From a virus, in IMG/VR virus record IMGVR_UViG_3300040856_001514, positions 1 through 28,101 of that record: DNA of 28,101 bases; one strand, written 5' to 3'. Within the stretch, counting starts at the first letter, position 1, and each line of letters begins with the position of its first letter. The position numbers and the translations under genes are program-made. The notes under the pieces are model-generated. The model did not search any database. It was given only the letters and a program-made list of their open reading frames with translations, and was not told where the DNA came from. Shown here in pieces: positions 3,395 to 24,236 of the stretch.

Positions 3395-3850
3395 TTAATC
3401 TCGAGTCTTTTTTTTTACCTGCTCGTTTTCAACAACAAATTCTTTGTACTCTTTCATCAGTTTGCTATAGGCTTCTTCATTAACTTTTTCATCTTCATTA
3501 GTTAAAGGATTGTCACCATTTCTAGCAGGAACATATTTGAATTTTTTTTGATTTTTTATAGATGTTGTAAAATCGTCTTGCTTGTAAGTGTTTGGTCCTG
3601 TGTGAACCATTACGCTGTCTTCTTTCATATCAATTTCTACTTCCATATCATCGTCTTGAAATGCTTTTTGCATTTCTGGCAGTGTTGCAGAAGTTTGTAT
3701 TTCTGCTTCTGCTCTGTTAAATTCTGACACATCAATCTGAGCATCTAAAATGCCTGAGTTTCTCAAAGCAAACTGCAATGATGATTCAATTGATCTATCT
3801 TCGTCTAAATCAAAATCTCCTTCGTCAACTCTTACAACGTAACTGTGCAT
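3395..3850 (-). CDS. Hypothetical acidic protein, zero-frame part of a possible frameshift fusion
   Basis: 151 residues, acidic and rich in Asp, Glu and Gln, with no domain I recognise, no signal peptide and no membrane segment. The start at 3850 shares one base with the stop of the preceding gene (TAATG), so the two are translationally coupled, and AGGAAAG is a good Shine-Dalgarno match. The C-terminus VKKKTRD is made by reading through a nine-A run into a stop at 3395. The same run is a plausible -1 slip site that would replace the last three residues by 188 more. The neighbours (a capsid-targeted protein, gp16) suggest a head or packaging role, but nothing in the sequence shows it. Confidence 0.8.
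   Translation of the reverse strand: MHSYVVRVDEGDFDLDEDRSIESSLQFALRNSGILDAQIDVSEFNRAEAEIQTSATLPEMQKAFQDDDMEVEIDMKEDSVMVHTGPNTYKQDDFTTSIKNQKKFKYVPARNGDNPLTNEDEKVNEEAYSKLMKEYKEFVVENEQVKKKTRD
3407..3413 (-). promoter_or_regulatory. Candidate -1 ribosomal frameshift site (A_AAA_AAG)
   Basis: In the mRNA of the 3395-3850 ORF the codons run GTA AAA AAA AAG ACT. The last seven bases of the A-run plus G form A_AAA_AAG in the zero frame, the same heptamer used by E. coli dnaX. Slipping back one base gives GAC next and opens a frame that runs to the stop at 2841-2843; without a slip the ribosome meets TAA four codons later. A 6-bp hairpin (arms 3369-3374 and 3354-3359) lies about 32 bases downstream, further than usual stimulators. 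No strong upstream Shine-Dalgarno-like stimulator is visible. Confidence 0.55.
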
Positions 3851-4494
3851 TATTTTGCTTTCCTGTTATCTTGTGTTAGTGGTGATTTTGCTTTGACATC
3901 ATCTTCTTTGGGCTGACTGTTGTCTACTGCATCAGTTTTGGTTTTTACACTCAAAGGACCTTCTGCTTCAACTTTGCCTCTGTCTGGATCATTGTCTCTA
4001 AAATCTTTTACGTCTTTTAAAAAATTCTTTTTGTGTTCTTCACCTGCTATGGGTGTTTCAGATTCGTTTGATTTCTTTTCATCGTCACTGTAATCTTGGC
4101 CCATTTTTGGTTCATAATCTTCTGGTTCAGCCTGCTGTCTGTTCACTTCAGCTTCTTGCTCTTGCTCTATTGGATCATTTGGACCTTTGACAACAATAGT
4201 TTCGTATGCTATTGCTAATTTGTCTGATAAATTTCTTCTAAATGTTTCATGTGATATTGGCATATTAATAATAGCATCAATTATATAAACTTCTGCATTT
4301 TTAACTTTAGTGCCAAAATCTAATGGATGTTCTTGCATAATTGTTTTAACAGGCTTGTTGATAGATACTATGTCATATCTTTCAAGCTCACGCTCAATTA
4401 TGTTCATCATGTCATCAGTTACTTCACAGGCAATCTTGATTCTAACTGGATTTTCTTGCACTGCTTCTGATAGATATTGTTTAAAACTTTTCAT
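3850..4494 (-). CDS. Putative internal head protein with T4-type capsid-targeting peptide
   Basis: I start this gene at the ATG at 4494, not at an in-frame ATG at 4524. The later start lies just after the gp16 stop, has AAGGA upstream, and gives the N-terminus MKSFKQYLSEAV. This matches position by position the T4 capsid-targeting sequence of internal protein I, MKTYQEFIAE followed by Ala, including the gp21 cleavage site (here LSE|A after residue 10). The mature 204-residue protein would have a compact alpha/beta-looking region (about residues 15-110) followed by a highly charged, probably disordered tail ending KAKSPLTQDNRKAK. T4 internal proteins are packed in the head and injected with DNA, so an injected or head-internal protein is the inference. 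The gene is coupled to the next gene by a TAATG overlap. The function after targeting is unknown. Confidence 0.78.
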   Translation of the reverse strand: MKSFKQYLSEAVQENPVRIKIACEVTDDMMNIIERELERYDIVSINKPVKTIMQEHPLDFGTKVKNAEVYIIDAIINMPISHETFRRNLSDKLAIAYETIVVKGPNDPIEQEQEAEVNRQQAEPEDYEPKMGQDYSDDEKKSNESETPIAGEEHKKNFLKDVKDFRDNDPDRGKVEAEGPLSVKTKTDAVDNSQPKEDDVKAKSPLTQDNRKAK

Positions 4495-4498
4495 ACTA

Positions 4499-5083
4499 TT
4501 ATTTATCATCCTTGTCATTTTCATTAACCTTTTTAACCAACTGATCTAGCAATTTGTTGCGATCTCCTACAATATAGCCCTCTCCTTCAATAAAATCATC
4601 ATTTTTACCTTCAGATTTTTGCTCCCATTGATCTACTCTTTGCTTTTTCAATTGTAGCTCAATCATACGCAGTTTTTTGTCTGCTTTGGCGTTTTTGGCT
4701 TCAATGGCATTTTTCATCATAGTCTGTGCCACTTCAAACATTTTACCAGCATGTCGTGATTCTGAGTTCATACCCAAATCCATTAATTCTTTATAACTTT
4801 TCATGGCTTCAACAGCATAGTCATCCATGTCGTGATCATGTGCTTCAAGATCTTTCACCTGAGGCAATGCACGATCAATTTTTTCTGCTGTAGATAATGC
4901 CTTTTTAATTTCTACTGCTTCTTCTTCTTTTTCACTGTCTTCTGTTATTGCATTTTCTATTGCTTCATATTCAGACAACGGTGTAGACAAAGTATTTTCC
5001 TCAACATGGTCTTTTATTTGTTGCTCGTTGAGAGCATCTTCCATGCTTGGTAAATCAAATGTTTTTTCTAATTTTTTATTCAT
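4499..5083 (-). CDS. gp16: Terminase small subunit, gp16-like
   Basis: 194 residues. The recognisable part is the central pair of long helices (about 95-160), with SRHAGKMFEVAQTMMKNAI followed by a Lys/Ala/Gln-rich helix. It corresponds to T4 gp16 SPRHMEVFATLMGQM and the oligomerising coiled coil used by T4-like small terminases to form a ring on DNA. The acidic N-terminus and a C-terminal EGYIVGDRNKLLDQL, resembling T4 gp16 FMGSPTELMDEI, complete the match. It would recognise concatemer DNA and stimulate gp17. It lies on the same strand as gp17 but about 3.5 kb away. An ATAAATA box precedes it. Length is close to T4 gp16 (164 residues) with a longer N-terminus. Assignment rests on pattern and context. 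Confidence 0.78.
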   Translation of the reverse strand: MNKKLEKTFDLPSMEDALNEQQIKDHVEENTLSTPLSEYEAIENAITEDSEKEEEAVEIKKALSTAEKIDRALPQVKDLEAHDHDMDDYAVEAMKSYKELMDLGMNSESRHAGKMFEVAQTMMKNAIEAKNAKADKKLRMIELQLKKQRVDQWEQKSEGKNDDFIEGEGYIVGDRNKLLDQLVKKVNENDKDDK

Positions 5084-6010: not shown

Positions 6011-6433
6011 TTACTTTATAGCATAGATTGAGTCTTCATTCAAGACCCTAAATCTAATTCCTTTCCTCTTTGCCCACTCTCCTGCCGCTAACCATTTGGC
6101 TCTGTTAATCAAATAATTTACTTTATCTTGTTGGCTTTTGATACTTTCCAATGTGGTCTGTTTCTTTGGCTTTATTTCAACCATTTCAGCAATCTTTTTT
6201 CCTTTTTTGTTAACATACACCATCATAAAATCTGGTACATACATACTCATTTTTCCAGTGAACGGATGTTTGTATGGTATCCTTACAGGTTCGCTAGCCC
6301 ATTGTATCACACTAGGGTGGTTGTCACACATTCTCATAAAAGTCAATTCCCATCCAGAACGATAACGAGGAGATCTGCTTCCCACATATTTTTGTTCATT
6401 TTTAACTTTGTAAAACCCTTGATGAAACTTCAT
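6011..6433 (-). CDS. gp4: Head completion nuclease, gp4-like
   Basis: 140 residues, the usual size of T4 gp4 (head completion protein, also called gp50). The conserved block runs RSGWELTFMRMCDNHPSVI (Glu29, His39, Pro40), then WASEPVRIPYKHP (Glu48), then MYVPDFMMVY (Asp68), then MVEIKPKK (Glu86, Lys88). Asp68...Glu86-x-Lys88 fits a PD-(D/E)xK nuclease core, and the arrangement resembles TnsA-like endonucleases. In T4 the protein is needed to finish filled heads before tail joining, and probably trims DNA or seals the portal. It sits among neck and tail genes on the late strand, as gene 4 does in T4. All active-site residues appear intact. Confidence 0.9.
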   Translation of the reverse strand: MKFHQGFYKVKNEQKYVGSRSPRYRSGWELTFMRMCDNHPSVIQWASEPVRIPYKHPFTGKMSMYVPDFMMVYVNKKGKKIAEMVEIKPKKQTTLESIKSQQDKVNYLINRAKWLAAGEWAKRKGIRFRVLNEDSIYAIK

Positions 6434-11825: not shown

Positions 11826-12197
11826 ATGAGCGTGAAAGACGATATAAAGCACATAAGACCATTATGTAATTCTTGTAAAACTAGACCTGCGGCTTTTAAT
11901 TACAAAAGAAAAGGCAAAGTTTATTATCGTAAAAAATGTGATCAATGTATCAAAACTGATGCAGGTGAGAGAACAAAATACAATTATTCATGGGTCAAAA
12001 GCGGATATAGAAAGAAAAGTATCTGTGAAAAATGTGGCTTTAAATCAAAACATCCTTCACAAATGGACGTTTATCACATAGACGGCAACTTAAAAAATTC
12101 TAGTTGGGATAACTTAAAAAGTATATGTGCTAATTGTAGTAGAATCAAAAGTCTTGACGAAGTAGGGTGGAAACAAGGTGATTTATTACCAGATTAG
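11826..12197 (+). CDS. HNH-type zinc-finger endonuclease
   Basis: 123 residues with two metal-binding units. The N-terminal CNSC (14-17) and CDQC (38-41) form a zinc-ribbon pattern. The C-terminal HNH part has CEKC (67-70), the core YHIDGNLKNS with His84, Asp86 and Asn88, a second NLKSICANC with Asn96, and Cys101/Cys104 completing the zinc knot. This is the small phage HNH protein type that nicks or cuts DNA, either as a free-standing homing enzyme or in packaging. It is transcribed opposite to gp18 and converges on a lipoprotein gene, with stop codons overlapping in TTAG. Its position beside tRNA genes and between tail genes of the other strand suits a mobile insertion. All key residues are present. 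Confidence 0.85.
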   Translation: MSVKDDIKHIRPLCNSCKTRPAAFNYKRKGKVYYRKKCDQCIKTDAGERTKYNYSWVKSGYRKKSICEKCGFKSKHPSQMDVYHIDGNLKNSSWDNLKSICANCSRIKSLDEVGWKQGDLLPD

Positions 12198-21323: not shown

Positions 21324-22496
21324 TTACACAAATGACAAGTTTGATACACCAATTTTTGAGATGTAGTCTTGTGCATTACCAAGTGATGATGCAGTGTTGT
21401 TTAACTCTACATAACCGTATCTTGTCATGAACGATACTACTGGCTCAAATGTACCTGGATCAATTACAACGCCAGAAGACATTAGAGGAATGTATGGGCA
21501 ATAGAAAGCCGCCGCATCCACTTCGCCTGGACCTTTGTAACCAACTAGTACGTTAGCACTATCAGAAGCATATGAATTAACGTATACTCTCATAGAACCG
21601 TTTAATGTACCAACAAATTTAGTGTTAGTTGGTGCATCAAATGTACCTTCAGTTGTTCTTGCAAACGCTGAAGTTGTCGCTGATTGAAGAATTGTAAGTG
21701 CTGTTGGAGACATTACTGCCCAGTTACCTGCACCTCTTCTTGTTCTTTGTGCAATCAAGTTTGCTTCTCTGTTGATCAGGATGGCTAAAACTGCATGTTT
21801 GTCACCGATATATGTGTGTGTACCAGTTACAGTGCTCATGTCAAAGTTTGTTGCCGCCGATGTTGCTAGAGAATTTAGTGAACCTAAAATTTCTTGATCG
21901 ATTTCAGCTGTTATTTCTTGTGCTAGAGCCGCCATAATTTCAGCTTCTACATCAAGACCGTGCATTGCGTTAGCATCTTGAGCCGACTCAAAAGTCCATC
22001 TTGCTGATAGCTTTCTTGTCTTAGCTTCTACAGTTTGTTTTAACACTTGAATTGACATTCTGTTACCAGCCGCACCTTCTAGTGTTGATGTTGAAGCCGC
22101 TTTGTCGTCAACTGCACCTGAATAACCTTCAGCAATTTTGAACGGAGAAAGTGCTTCTTCGCCTGCTGTAGTATCAGTACCTGATGTTGAATTGAATGAG
22201 TCAGCGTATCTAACTCTTAATGTGTGGATTTGTCCAACTGGACCTGTCATTGGTTGTACACCAACGATTTCGTTTGCGATCACAGTGGGCATAACCCTTC
22301 TGATTACTGGAAGGATAACCTTGTTTAAAGCCGCAACATTACCAGCGCCTGTGGCACCGGCTGTAGCCGCTTCAGCCAAATAAGTTTGAGTGTTCTCTAG
22401 GATTGCACCCATAGTCTCTTTTCTTTGACCTTCAAGTCCTTCTAGCAGAGCAGATTTTGTATTTTCCCAATTTTCAGTAATTGTTTTGTCTGTCAT
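21324..22496 (-). CDS. gp23: Major capsid protein, gp23-like
   Basis: 390 residues, shorter than T4 gp23 (521). The N-terminal helix ends in YLAEAATAGATGAGN, and LAE|A (40-43) is the expected prohead protease site, leaving a mature protein of about 348 residues. The start of the HK97-type core is typical of T4-like capsids: VILPVIRRVMPTVIANEIVG and VQPMTGPVGQIHTLRVRYAD. Later marker segments are RKLSARWTFESAQDANAMHG and the C-terminal FEPVVSFMTRYGYVELN. It makes the hexamers of the head. AGGAG precedes the ATG, the gp22 stop is only 2 bases upstream, and a strong terminator follows. The short length suggests the T4 insertion domain is reduced or absent. Confidence 0.96.
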   Translation of the reverse strand: MTDKTITENWENTKSALLEGLEGQRKETMGAILENTQTYLAEAATAGATGAGNVAALNKVILPVIRRVMPTVIANEIVGVQPMTGPVGQIHTLRVRYADSFNSTSGTDTTAGEEALSPFKIAEGYSGAVDDKAASTSTLEGAAGNRMSIQVLKQTVEAKTRKLSARWTFESAQDANAMHGLDVEAEIMAALAQEITAEIDQEILGSLNSLATSAATNFDMSTVTGTHTYIGDKHAVLAILINREANLIAQRTRRGAGNWAVMSPTALTILQSATTSAFARTTEGTFDAPTNTKFVGTLNGSMRVYVNSYASDSANVLVGYKGPGEVDAAAFYCPYIPLMSSGVVIDPGTFEPVVSFMTRYGYVELNNTASSLGNAQDYISKIGVSNLSFV

Positions 22497-22498
22497 GT

Positions 22499-23587
22499 TT
22501 AACTCCTTAGACCTGCTAGTCGTTTAATATTAACGATATCATTATTTTCGTCGTTGCTAATTGTTTCAGCTCTATCTCCAGTGTGCTCTGTGATTACTAC
22601 TTTGTTTGTTTCAACTTCAGTAGTTGTTTCATTTAACACTGCTGGTAGATATTTTTCAAACTGCTTCTTAAGATTAACAGTTTGAACTGATTCAAGTAAC
22701 TCTGACATTACTTGACGCTTATCTTTTGATAGTGGTGAAACAAGTTCGTTAAGAGTTTTTTCTCTAACAATCTTGTCTTCAGCTATTTTTAGCTTTGTTT
22801 CCACTGTCTTAATTTCAGCGTCTTTTTCAGCGAGGCTACCTTCCAATGTCTTGGTCATTTCCTGCTGATCAGTAAGTTGATCATTCAACTTACGAATTTC
22901 TCCACCTTCGTTTAGGTAAGAACTCATGTATTCACCTGCAAACGCTTCAAACACTTTTCTACCAAAATTGTTTTCTTTTGCAACTTTGATGTCTTCTTTA
23001 AGTGCTGTCATTTCGTTTTTCAGTGTTGAACTAACTGTGTCTTCAACAAGACCAGCCGCTCTTTTAACAAATGCCGCTTTAGTATCTTCGATAACTTTCT
23101 TACCTTCTGCTACTAATTTAACTTTTGTTTCAACAACGTCTTTTTTGTCTTGTGCGAACTCAGATAATTCATTGGAGAGTTGTCTGACTACAAACTCTTC
23201 TAAGTTTGTAAATTGACCTTTGAGTGACTCTCTGTCGCCATGTAATTCTTGCACTTCTTTTACAAGAGTTTCATTAACGAACTTAGTCAACAGTTCCGAA
23301 TGTTCTCCCATTTTTTGTTTGTATGCTACAGTTTCAGCAACAAGTTTTTGCTTGTCTTCTGCTAGTTCACTCATCTCTTTTTTAAGAGAATCAGTAATCA
23401 TATTGTCCATAGCTTCAACAATTTGAGATTTGTCGTTTTCGTAACGTTGTGCAAACTCCTCACGAAGTTCTGCAGAAAGTTCCTCACGAGCCTCAGACAG
23501 CTTTTTCTCCCACGCTTCCTGAACTTGAGTTTTTACCTCTTCAGAAAGGGTTTCGGATCCAAAAATTTCATCAGTTATATTTGCCAT
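22499..23587 (-). CDS. gp22: Prohead scaffold protein, gp22-like
   Basis: 362 residues (T4 gp22 has 269), almost entirely charged coiled coil, rich in Glu, Lys and Leu. It fills the growing prohead and is removed by gp21. Sites fitting the (L/I)xE|(A/G/S) cleavage rule are visible: KKLSE|A near the N-terminus, SYLNE|GGE in the middle and ELLE|SVQ later. That is what is expected of a scaffold cut to small peptides. The position between gp21 and gp23 is the T4 order. AAGGAG lies before the ATG. The identity rests on composition, cleavage sites and gene order more than on direct similarity. Confidence 0.88.
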   Translation of the reverse strand: MANITDEIFGSETLSEEVKTQVQEAWEKKLSEAREELSAELREEFAQRYENDKSQIVEAMDNMITDSLKKEMSELAEDKQKLVAETVAYKQKMGEHSELLTKFVNETLVKEVQELHGDRESLKGQFTNLEEFVVRQLSNELSEFAQDKKDVVETKVKLVAEGKKVIEDTKAAFVKRAAGLVEDTVSSTLKNEMTALKEDIKVAKENNFGRKVFEAFAGEYMSSYLNEGGEIRKLNDQLTDQQEMTKTLEGSLAEKDAEIKTVETKLKIAEDKIVREKTLNELVSPLSKDKRQVMSELLESVQTVNLKKQFEKYLPAVLNETTTEVETNKVVITEHTGDRAETISNDENNDIVNIKRLAGLRS

Positions 23588-23597
23588 CTGAATCTCC

Positions 23598-24236
23598 TTA
23601 TTTTAACCTTAGTTCTGTTATTATTTTCATAACTTCTTCTGCCAAATACTTTTCAGCTACTGCATCATATGTGGCATCACGACTCAAATTTAATATTTTT
23701 TGTCCGCCACGCATATTTAGTAGACCTTCGTAAATGGCTTTTGGATATGCATCAGGGGCCGAAGGCTGTGCAACAACGTCTACAGTAACGATTTCAAATT
23801 CTGACACTTTACCATCGTTACCAACATTGCCAGCGCCTCTGGAACTTACTCCCAATTTACATCCGCCTTTAAGCAAAGTTGATACTATTTTACCCATCGG
23901 GGTTTCTAGTATTTTTAGTTTTCCGTATCCATCTGGACCATCCATCCACATATTTTCTATCATATGAGAAACTCTGTCTAAGTTGATCTGTAAACCTTGT
24001 GGATGATCACATTCACCCATTACAGAATAACCACCATTGATTTTCTCTTTGATTGAATCTACTGCGCCACGGATTTGTTCAACCGGATAAACACGTTTGT
24101 TTTCGTTAACTACTCCACCTTGAATAAAAACACCTTCCATATAGTAGTGTTTTTGATCCTCTTTGCCTTCTTGTACGACATTGATCTTTGCTTGATCAAA
24201 TGTCAAACTTTCTGTTAGTGGACGCATAACTCTCAT
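23598..24236 (-). CDS. gp21: Prohead core protease, gp21-like
   Basis: 212 residues, the same size as T4 gp21. The herpesvirus-type serine protease features are visible: VFIQGGVVNENKRVYP (36-51), the histidine in MGECDHP (His78), the nucleophile in LGVSSRGAG (Ser131/Ser132) and an acidic strand VTVDVVAQPSAPDA with Asp153. It matures the prohead by cutting after Glu in (L/I)xE. Its own N-terminus has RPLTE|S (7-10), a probable self-cleavage site. It is expressed with the scaffold and core genes; an AGGAG site precedes the ATG. All catalytic residues appear to be present. Confidence 0.94.
   Translation of the reverse strand: MRVMRPLTESLTFDQAKINVVQEGKEDQKHYYMEGVFIQGGVVNENKRVYPVEQIRGAVDSIKEKINGGYSVMGECDHPQGLQINLDRVSHMIENMWMDGPDGYGKLKILETPMGKIVSTLLKGGCKLGVSSRGAGNVGNDGKVSEFEIVTVDVVAQPSAPDAYPKAIYEGLLNMRGGQKILNLSRDATYDAVAEKYLAEEVMKIITELRLK

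Follow-up and report, generated by a model that had tools for sequence, protein, structure and literature searches.

We propose that gene X, which lies on the minus strand of the window (the IMG/VR virus record IMGVR_UViG_3300040856_001514, analyzed over its whole 28,101 bases), encodes a core head protein with a T4-type loading peptide, which would be cut off in marine phages and in many cases left in place elsewhere; we regard this reading as rather probable. It draws on homology, gene order, the presence of relatives in virions, the pattern and variation of the peptide, the protease encoded alongside, and a matching gp23 site, and all that we state on marine X derives from sequence and from its distant relatives. 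The gene and its parts are listed here, with a slash marking a cleavage point.

3850 to 4494, minus strand: gene X as a whole, a phrog_14802 member (PHROGs E 7.8e-11; tblastn matches to jumbo phages)
4465 to 4494, minus strand: putative capsid-targeting peptide, residues 1–10 (MKSFKQYLSE), the one N-terminus of its genome that fits the T4 pattern
4462 to 4467, minus strand: predicted gp21 cleavage point Glu10/Ala11, where YLSE/A resembles the gp23 site of the same phage, YLAE/A
4150 to 4464, minus strand: mature domain, residues 11–115, predicted by AlphaFold2 to be ferredoxin-like (beta-alpha-beta-beta-alpha-beta)
3853 to 4149, minus strand: acidic, mostly disordered C-terminal tail, residues 116–214, with pLDDT mostly under 60

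The open reading frame translates into 214 amino acids plus a stop with the N-terminus MKSFKQYLSEAVQENPVRIK, which reads MKSFKQYLSE/AVQ around the predicted cut. The start call is supported, since every marine copy shares the start codon and has AAGGA or AGGAGG upstream, and since the distant RaK2-type relatives begin at the aligned Met, which GGAG closely precedes. A first-pass annotation, made from the sequence alone, had found no recognized relative of the mature part, and this claim did not survive database searching. Residues 1–163 of X match positions 1–157 of the 179 in the phrog_14802 profile (E 7.8e-11), a family annotated in PHROGs as "virion structural protein" under head and packaging, and tblastn detected relatives, some of them known from virions, in jumbo phages of the RaK2/GAP32/CBB/121Q/Munch, PA5oct, Atu_ph07/Phosso and Vibrio 2.275 types at E values down to 1e-12, with 20–33% identity to X over the peptide and the domain. 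Judged by sequence, X is thus a member of an already known family, the copies of which include CBB_210, GAP32_204, 121Q_557, RaK2 ORF047, PA5oct gp282 and Atu_ph07 gp113, and the profile match together with the tblastn relatives ruled out that it is an orphan. A Pfam match to a GDSL lipase fell below the cut-off and was disregarded. The source phage is marine and related to the giant phages of the RaK2/PA5oct kind; its portal and gp23 are 52% and 66% identical to those of PA5oct.

A search with the X profile recovered 15 of 15 relatives and found the gene in a single copy in 15/15 records, yet it gave zero matches in T4 at E values up to 10, and no homologue was found with it in P-SSM2 or HTVC008M. 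Likewise, a homologue was not found in SCTP-2, XacN1 or CM1, phages whose gp23 is related to that of the phage studied here, unlike XaC1, which carries one. Relatives of X were found neither in bacterial genomes nor among solved structures searched by sequence.

The gene order around X, together with the head genes of the window, places it in a structural setting. The features concerned are these.

4499 to 5083, minus strand: upstream neighbor phrog_16202, a conserved helical protein that is small-terminase-like by position only
6011 to 6433, minus strand: gp4 head-completion protein (PF08722, E 4.6e-20), part of the conserved gene order
22368 to 22382, minus strand: gp23 maturation site YLAE/A, residues 39–43, aligned with FLTE/A of T4 gp23
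22499 to 23587, minus strand: gp22-type scaffold (phrog_10922, E 8.3e-93), between gp21 and gp23
23598 to 24236, minus strand: gp21-type prohead protease (PF03420, E 1.2e-26; phrog_207, E 4.7e-59)

The order sheath, tubes, gp4, phrog_16202 (a coil protein) and X was conserved when the window and a second marine record, G007, were compared with nine jumbo phages, with extra genes inserted between gp4 and X in Phosso and Atu_ph07. The phrog_16202 gene also adjoins X in GAP32, Munch, Vibrio 2.275 and PA5oct, and Phosso has a relative of it a few genes away from X; no similarity was found between the downstream neighbor of X, protein Y, and GAP32_205. A gp21-type protease was present in 13/13 records checked. 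The gp22-type scaffold, which shares 40% identity with its PA5oct counterpart, is the likely docking partner of X in the prohead core.

Members of the family have been recovered from virions. CBB_210, the CBB copy of X (the numbering being anchored to the locus by CBB_208, which is gp4), was detected in CBB virions by mass spectrometry from 13 unique peptides that cover 60.5% of it (PMC5259590), and PA5oct gp282 is flagged ESI-MS/MS. The phAPEC6 protein gp270c (PMC7247149) is assigned through mass and order alone: its 16.20 kDa equals exactly the mass of the PBECO4 copy when that is counted from Met38, and the neighbors gp273c and gp267c likewise agree in mass. These mass spectrometry data on relatives speak to membership of the virion and not to a place inside the head, and they include no report of an N-terminal peptide or of cleavage for any relative. 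As a side observation, the gp270c annotation appears to lack the first 37 residues of X, the peptide included, given that the published mass fits a start at Met38.

To characterize the peptide, N-terminal start candidates of ten genomes or contigs were scanned with the strict pattern M[KR]x[FYL]xx[FYIL][LIV]xE[ASGN] and with a looser version of it. Exactly one strict match, X itself, was obtained in each of four records, namely the window and the longer marine G001, G003 and G007 (the last of 242 kb), which rules out a genome-wide habit of MKxF...LxE starts, and internal Met codons in the same four gave zero matches even to the looser pattern. Shuffling residues 2–20 yielded chance expectations of 0.000–0.003 strict and 0.01–0.12 looser matches per genome; since the strict pattern was devised after X had been seen, the control on T4 outweighs these expected counts. 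In that control, the strict pattern retrieved two ORFs and the looser one three, namely ipII, ipIII and gp61.1. T4 IPI was not matched; its propeptide may be longer, because 10–19 residues are given for these peptides in a review (PMC9026906). The T4 product gp61.1 (gene 61.1, L187 467–631), which begins MKTFKEFIKED, was the sole looser-pattern match there besides ipII and ipIII. Among the start candidates of the window and G001, a gp21-like site fell within the first 25 residues only in X and at an internal Met of gp23, the latter being just ahead of the gp23 maturation site. Compared with the T4 peptide letter by letter, M1, K2 and E10 are identical and positions 4 (Y/F), 7 (F/Y) and 8 (I/L) are conservative exchanges, so that identity is modest.

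A reading of the peptide as a functionless chance resemblance would draw on its length of only ten residues and on the after-the-fact design of the pattern, but we consider it very improbable: the specificity of the pattern was demonstrated on T4, L8 is nearly invariant across the family, and among 16 distinct marine sequences residues 1, 2, 4, 7, 8, 10 and 11 are invariant, with variation only at 3, 5, 6 and 9. The T4-like head-loading tag on X is probably real as far as sequence can tell, and the first-pass claim of a T4-type targeting peptide with a gp21 site was supported, at the level of sequence, by the sole match in the genome, the T4 control, the encoded gp21 and the matching gp23 site. 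The same annotation had proposed a search for other genes starting MKxFxxxLxE/A; in the window, G001, G003 and G007 only X matched the strict pattern, and in P-SSM2 such a start was encountered in PSSM2_115. The latter (L188 1770–2030), a hypothetical protein that adjoins an annotated virion structural protein, opens with MKSFKQFLEEA, which is almost the peptide of X.

In the marine copies, conservation of residues 1–11 (64% invariant) is barely higher than that of the rest of the domain (57%). In the family at large, F or L occupies position 4 and Y, I or F position 7, and L stands at position 8 in all but PA5oct. The residue at position 10 is Glu in all marine copies, all of which have Glu10/Ala11, and also in GAP32, CBB, PBECO4, Atu_ph07 and Vibrio 2.275; it is Asp in BF, Hallingskeid, Muenster and RaK2, Ser in Munch and Phosso, and Ala in PA5oct and XaC1. 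PA5oct X, with Tyr at 8 and Asp at 9, has a degraded pattern although the protein was found in virions. The gp23 maturation site, by comparison, kept its Glu in every phage aligned (T4 FLTE/A, marine YLAE/A, Munch MLRE/S), and the marine X site, YLSE/A, is nearly the same as that of its own gp23. With regard to the earlier concern that homologues might lack the peptide, the hydrophobic peptide was always present, while the cleavage Glu was absent from many non-marine relatives. Two close contigs, L081 and L083 (position 4001), differ at residue 10 of X in having Asp and Glu, respectively; the cleavage residue therefore changes over short times.

In T4, residues 4 and 7 of the targeting peptide mainly govern targeting, whereas 8 and 10 govern processing, and an Asp10 substitution blocked processing while still allowing targeting (PMC9026906). 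Variation within the X family fits this division, as read from sequence, with the targeting half retained (positions 4 and 7 stay hydrophobic throughout) and the processing half optional. The gp22 scaffold of RaK2-type phages itself opens with a targeting-like peptide bearing Glu10 (MSKLDKFLNE/S and MTKLEKLLKE/S; L055, L196–L199, L117, L120), which lends indirect support to a core head role for X. Against that role count the marine gp22, which lacks such an N-terminal peptide, the degraded pattern of PA5oct, the shortness of the pattern, the barely raised conservation of residues 1–11 among marine copies, and the possibility that a conserved amphipathic helix serves another contact.

Such a contact is the basis of a second explanation, in which X is a neck, portal-vertex or tail-head-joint virion protein, its N-terminal helix makes an ordinary assembly contact and the likeness to T4 is convergent. 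In its favor, genes for the tail sheath, the tail tubes and gp4 lie beside X, conservation of residue 10 stops at the marine clade, and any helix of this kind would keep its hydrophobic residues 4, 7 and 8. On the other hand, these genomes contain almost no other strict matches, the marine site copies that of its own gp23 down to the Ala at P1', and PHROGs places phrog_14802 in head and packaging; we therefore deem a neck or tail-joint role possible but unlikely.

Structure prediction of residues 11–115, proposed in the first-pass annotation, returned a confident ferredoxin-like fold (AlphaFold2 on this segment alone: pLDDT 89.4, pTM 0.83). Among solved structures, ribosomal protein S6 and HPPK came closest in fold (Z 6.6–7.6); the modeled fold would thus be the common ferredoxin-like superfold, and no function was inferred from it. 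In the full-length model, the peptide forms a helix at residues 4–10 with a pLDDT of 63, below the confidence of the domain, and a low-confidence peptide beside a well-modeled domain is as expected of a detachable tag. The tail shows one low-confidence helix at 151–168, and residues 111–214 have a pI of about 4.7. A fold search also gave a weak match to Ip7 of phage MX01 (E 3.7e-3, rank 27 of the viral list), which is one among many ferredoxin-like matches of similar score.

This match bears on a third explanation, in which X would resemble the T-even internal proteins as an injected effector that is loaded, cleaved and ejected with the DNA to act on host defence. The internal proteins of T-even phages are variable accessory proteins that target host defences (PMC12373910, PMC9026906), with T4 Ip1-3 being injected inhibitors of type IV restriction (PMC12373910). 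X shares with T4 IpII and IpIII an N-terminal peptide of ten residues that is hydrophobic at 4, 7 and 8, ends in Glu10 and is followed by Ala11; the protease family is common to both phages, and the mature X is small with an acidic tail. No homology of the mature parts was detected, the X profile finding nothing in T4 at E values up to 10, and the Ip7 match does not stand out from its many neighbors in the list. Moreover, a gene of the Ip1–Ip10 type would be expected to be accessory and variable and to lie outside the conserved head cluster. X belongs instead to the conserved core, keeps its synteny and occurs in all records of its group that were searched, and it sits in the structural cluster in the regions read. 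Because X is a conserved single-copy gene of that cluster and the T-even internal proteins are accessory and variable, a standard head part is more likely than a specialized injected weapon, and we judge the effector explanation improbable. The first-pass suggestion of an injected effector or an internal head protein of a new type was accordingly weakened in its effector part by the single copy and synteny of X in all its phages, and the family, being phrog_14802, is not new.

In the core head role that we prefer, residues 1–10 would form a short amphipathic helix that docks on the prohead scaffold core, like the T4 capsid-targeting sequence, and the forming gp23 shell would enclose X. The gp21-type protease of marine phages would then cut X after Glu10, at the same kind of site as in gp23, to release a 204-residue mature protein, made of the ferredoxin-like domain and the acidic tail, that would stay in the finished head. 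Many non-marine relatives have Asp, Ser or Ala at position 10, and X would therefore be loaded but not cut in those phages. The RaK2-type members of phrog_14802 resemble marine X in having a homologous peptide and domain, the same gene order and, for CBB and PA5oct, a place in virions; they differ from it at residue 10 (Glu, Asp, Ser or Ala) and in their C-terminal tails.

By analogy, X may be likened to the inner-body proteins of phiKZ/SPN3US-type phages, which are head proteins targeted and trimmed by a gp21-related prohead protease. Both 121Q and phAPEC6, which carry X, show an inner body (PMC5646251, PMC7247149), and sequence relatives of the phiKZ inner-body proteins were not found in phAPEC6 (PMC7247149); X may thus be a candidate component of the inner body of RaK2-type phages. 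A fuller version of our proposal, in which X is a T4-type targeted core protein whose targeting is kept throughout, whose cleavage residue switches between Glu and Asp, Ser or Ala even between close relatives, and which may form part of the inner body of 121Q and phAPEC6, is put forward tentatively, as a combination that we find rather doubtful.

The literature naming these jumbo phages, as searched, does not mention capsid targeting. X offers a testable entry point to the head loading of proteins in RaK2-type jumbo phages, as it is a conserved component of virions and bears a plausible signal for loading, in phages such as 121Q and phAPEC6 that have an inner body. The Glu, Asp, Ser and Ala found at its residue 10 constitute a natural counterpart of the T4 Asp10 mutants, which are loaded and uncut.

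Two further features of the region were observed. A radical SAM protein (PF04055) is encoded at 1511–2830, within the structural gene cluster, and in G007 a radical SAM protein and a second, similar-looking protein lie between X and the large terminase. A small plus-strand ORF at 11826–12197, next to the gene for the tail sheath, has zinc-ribbon and HNH-like matches below the Pfam cut-offs and is possibly a homing endonuclease.
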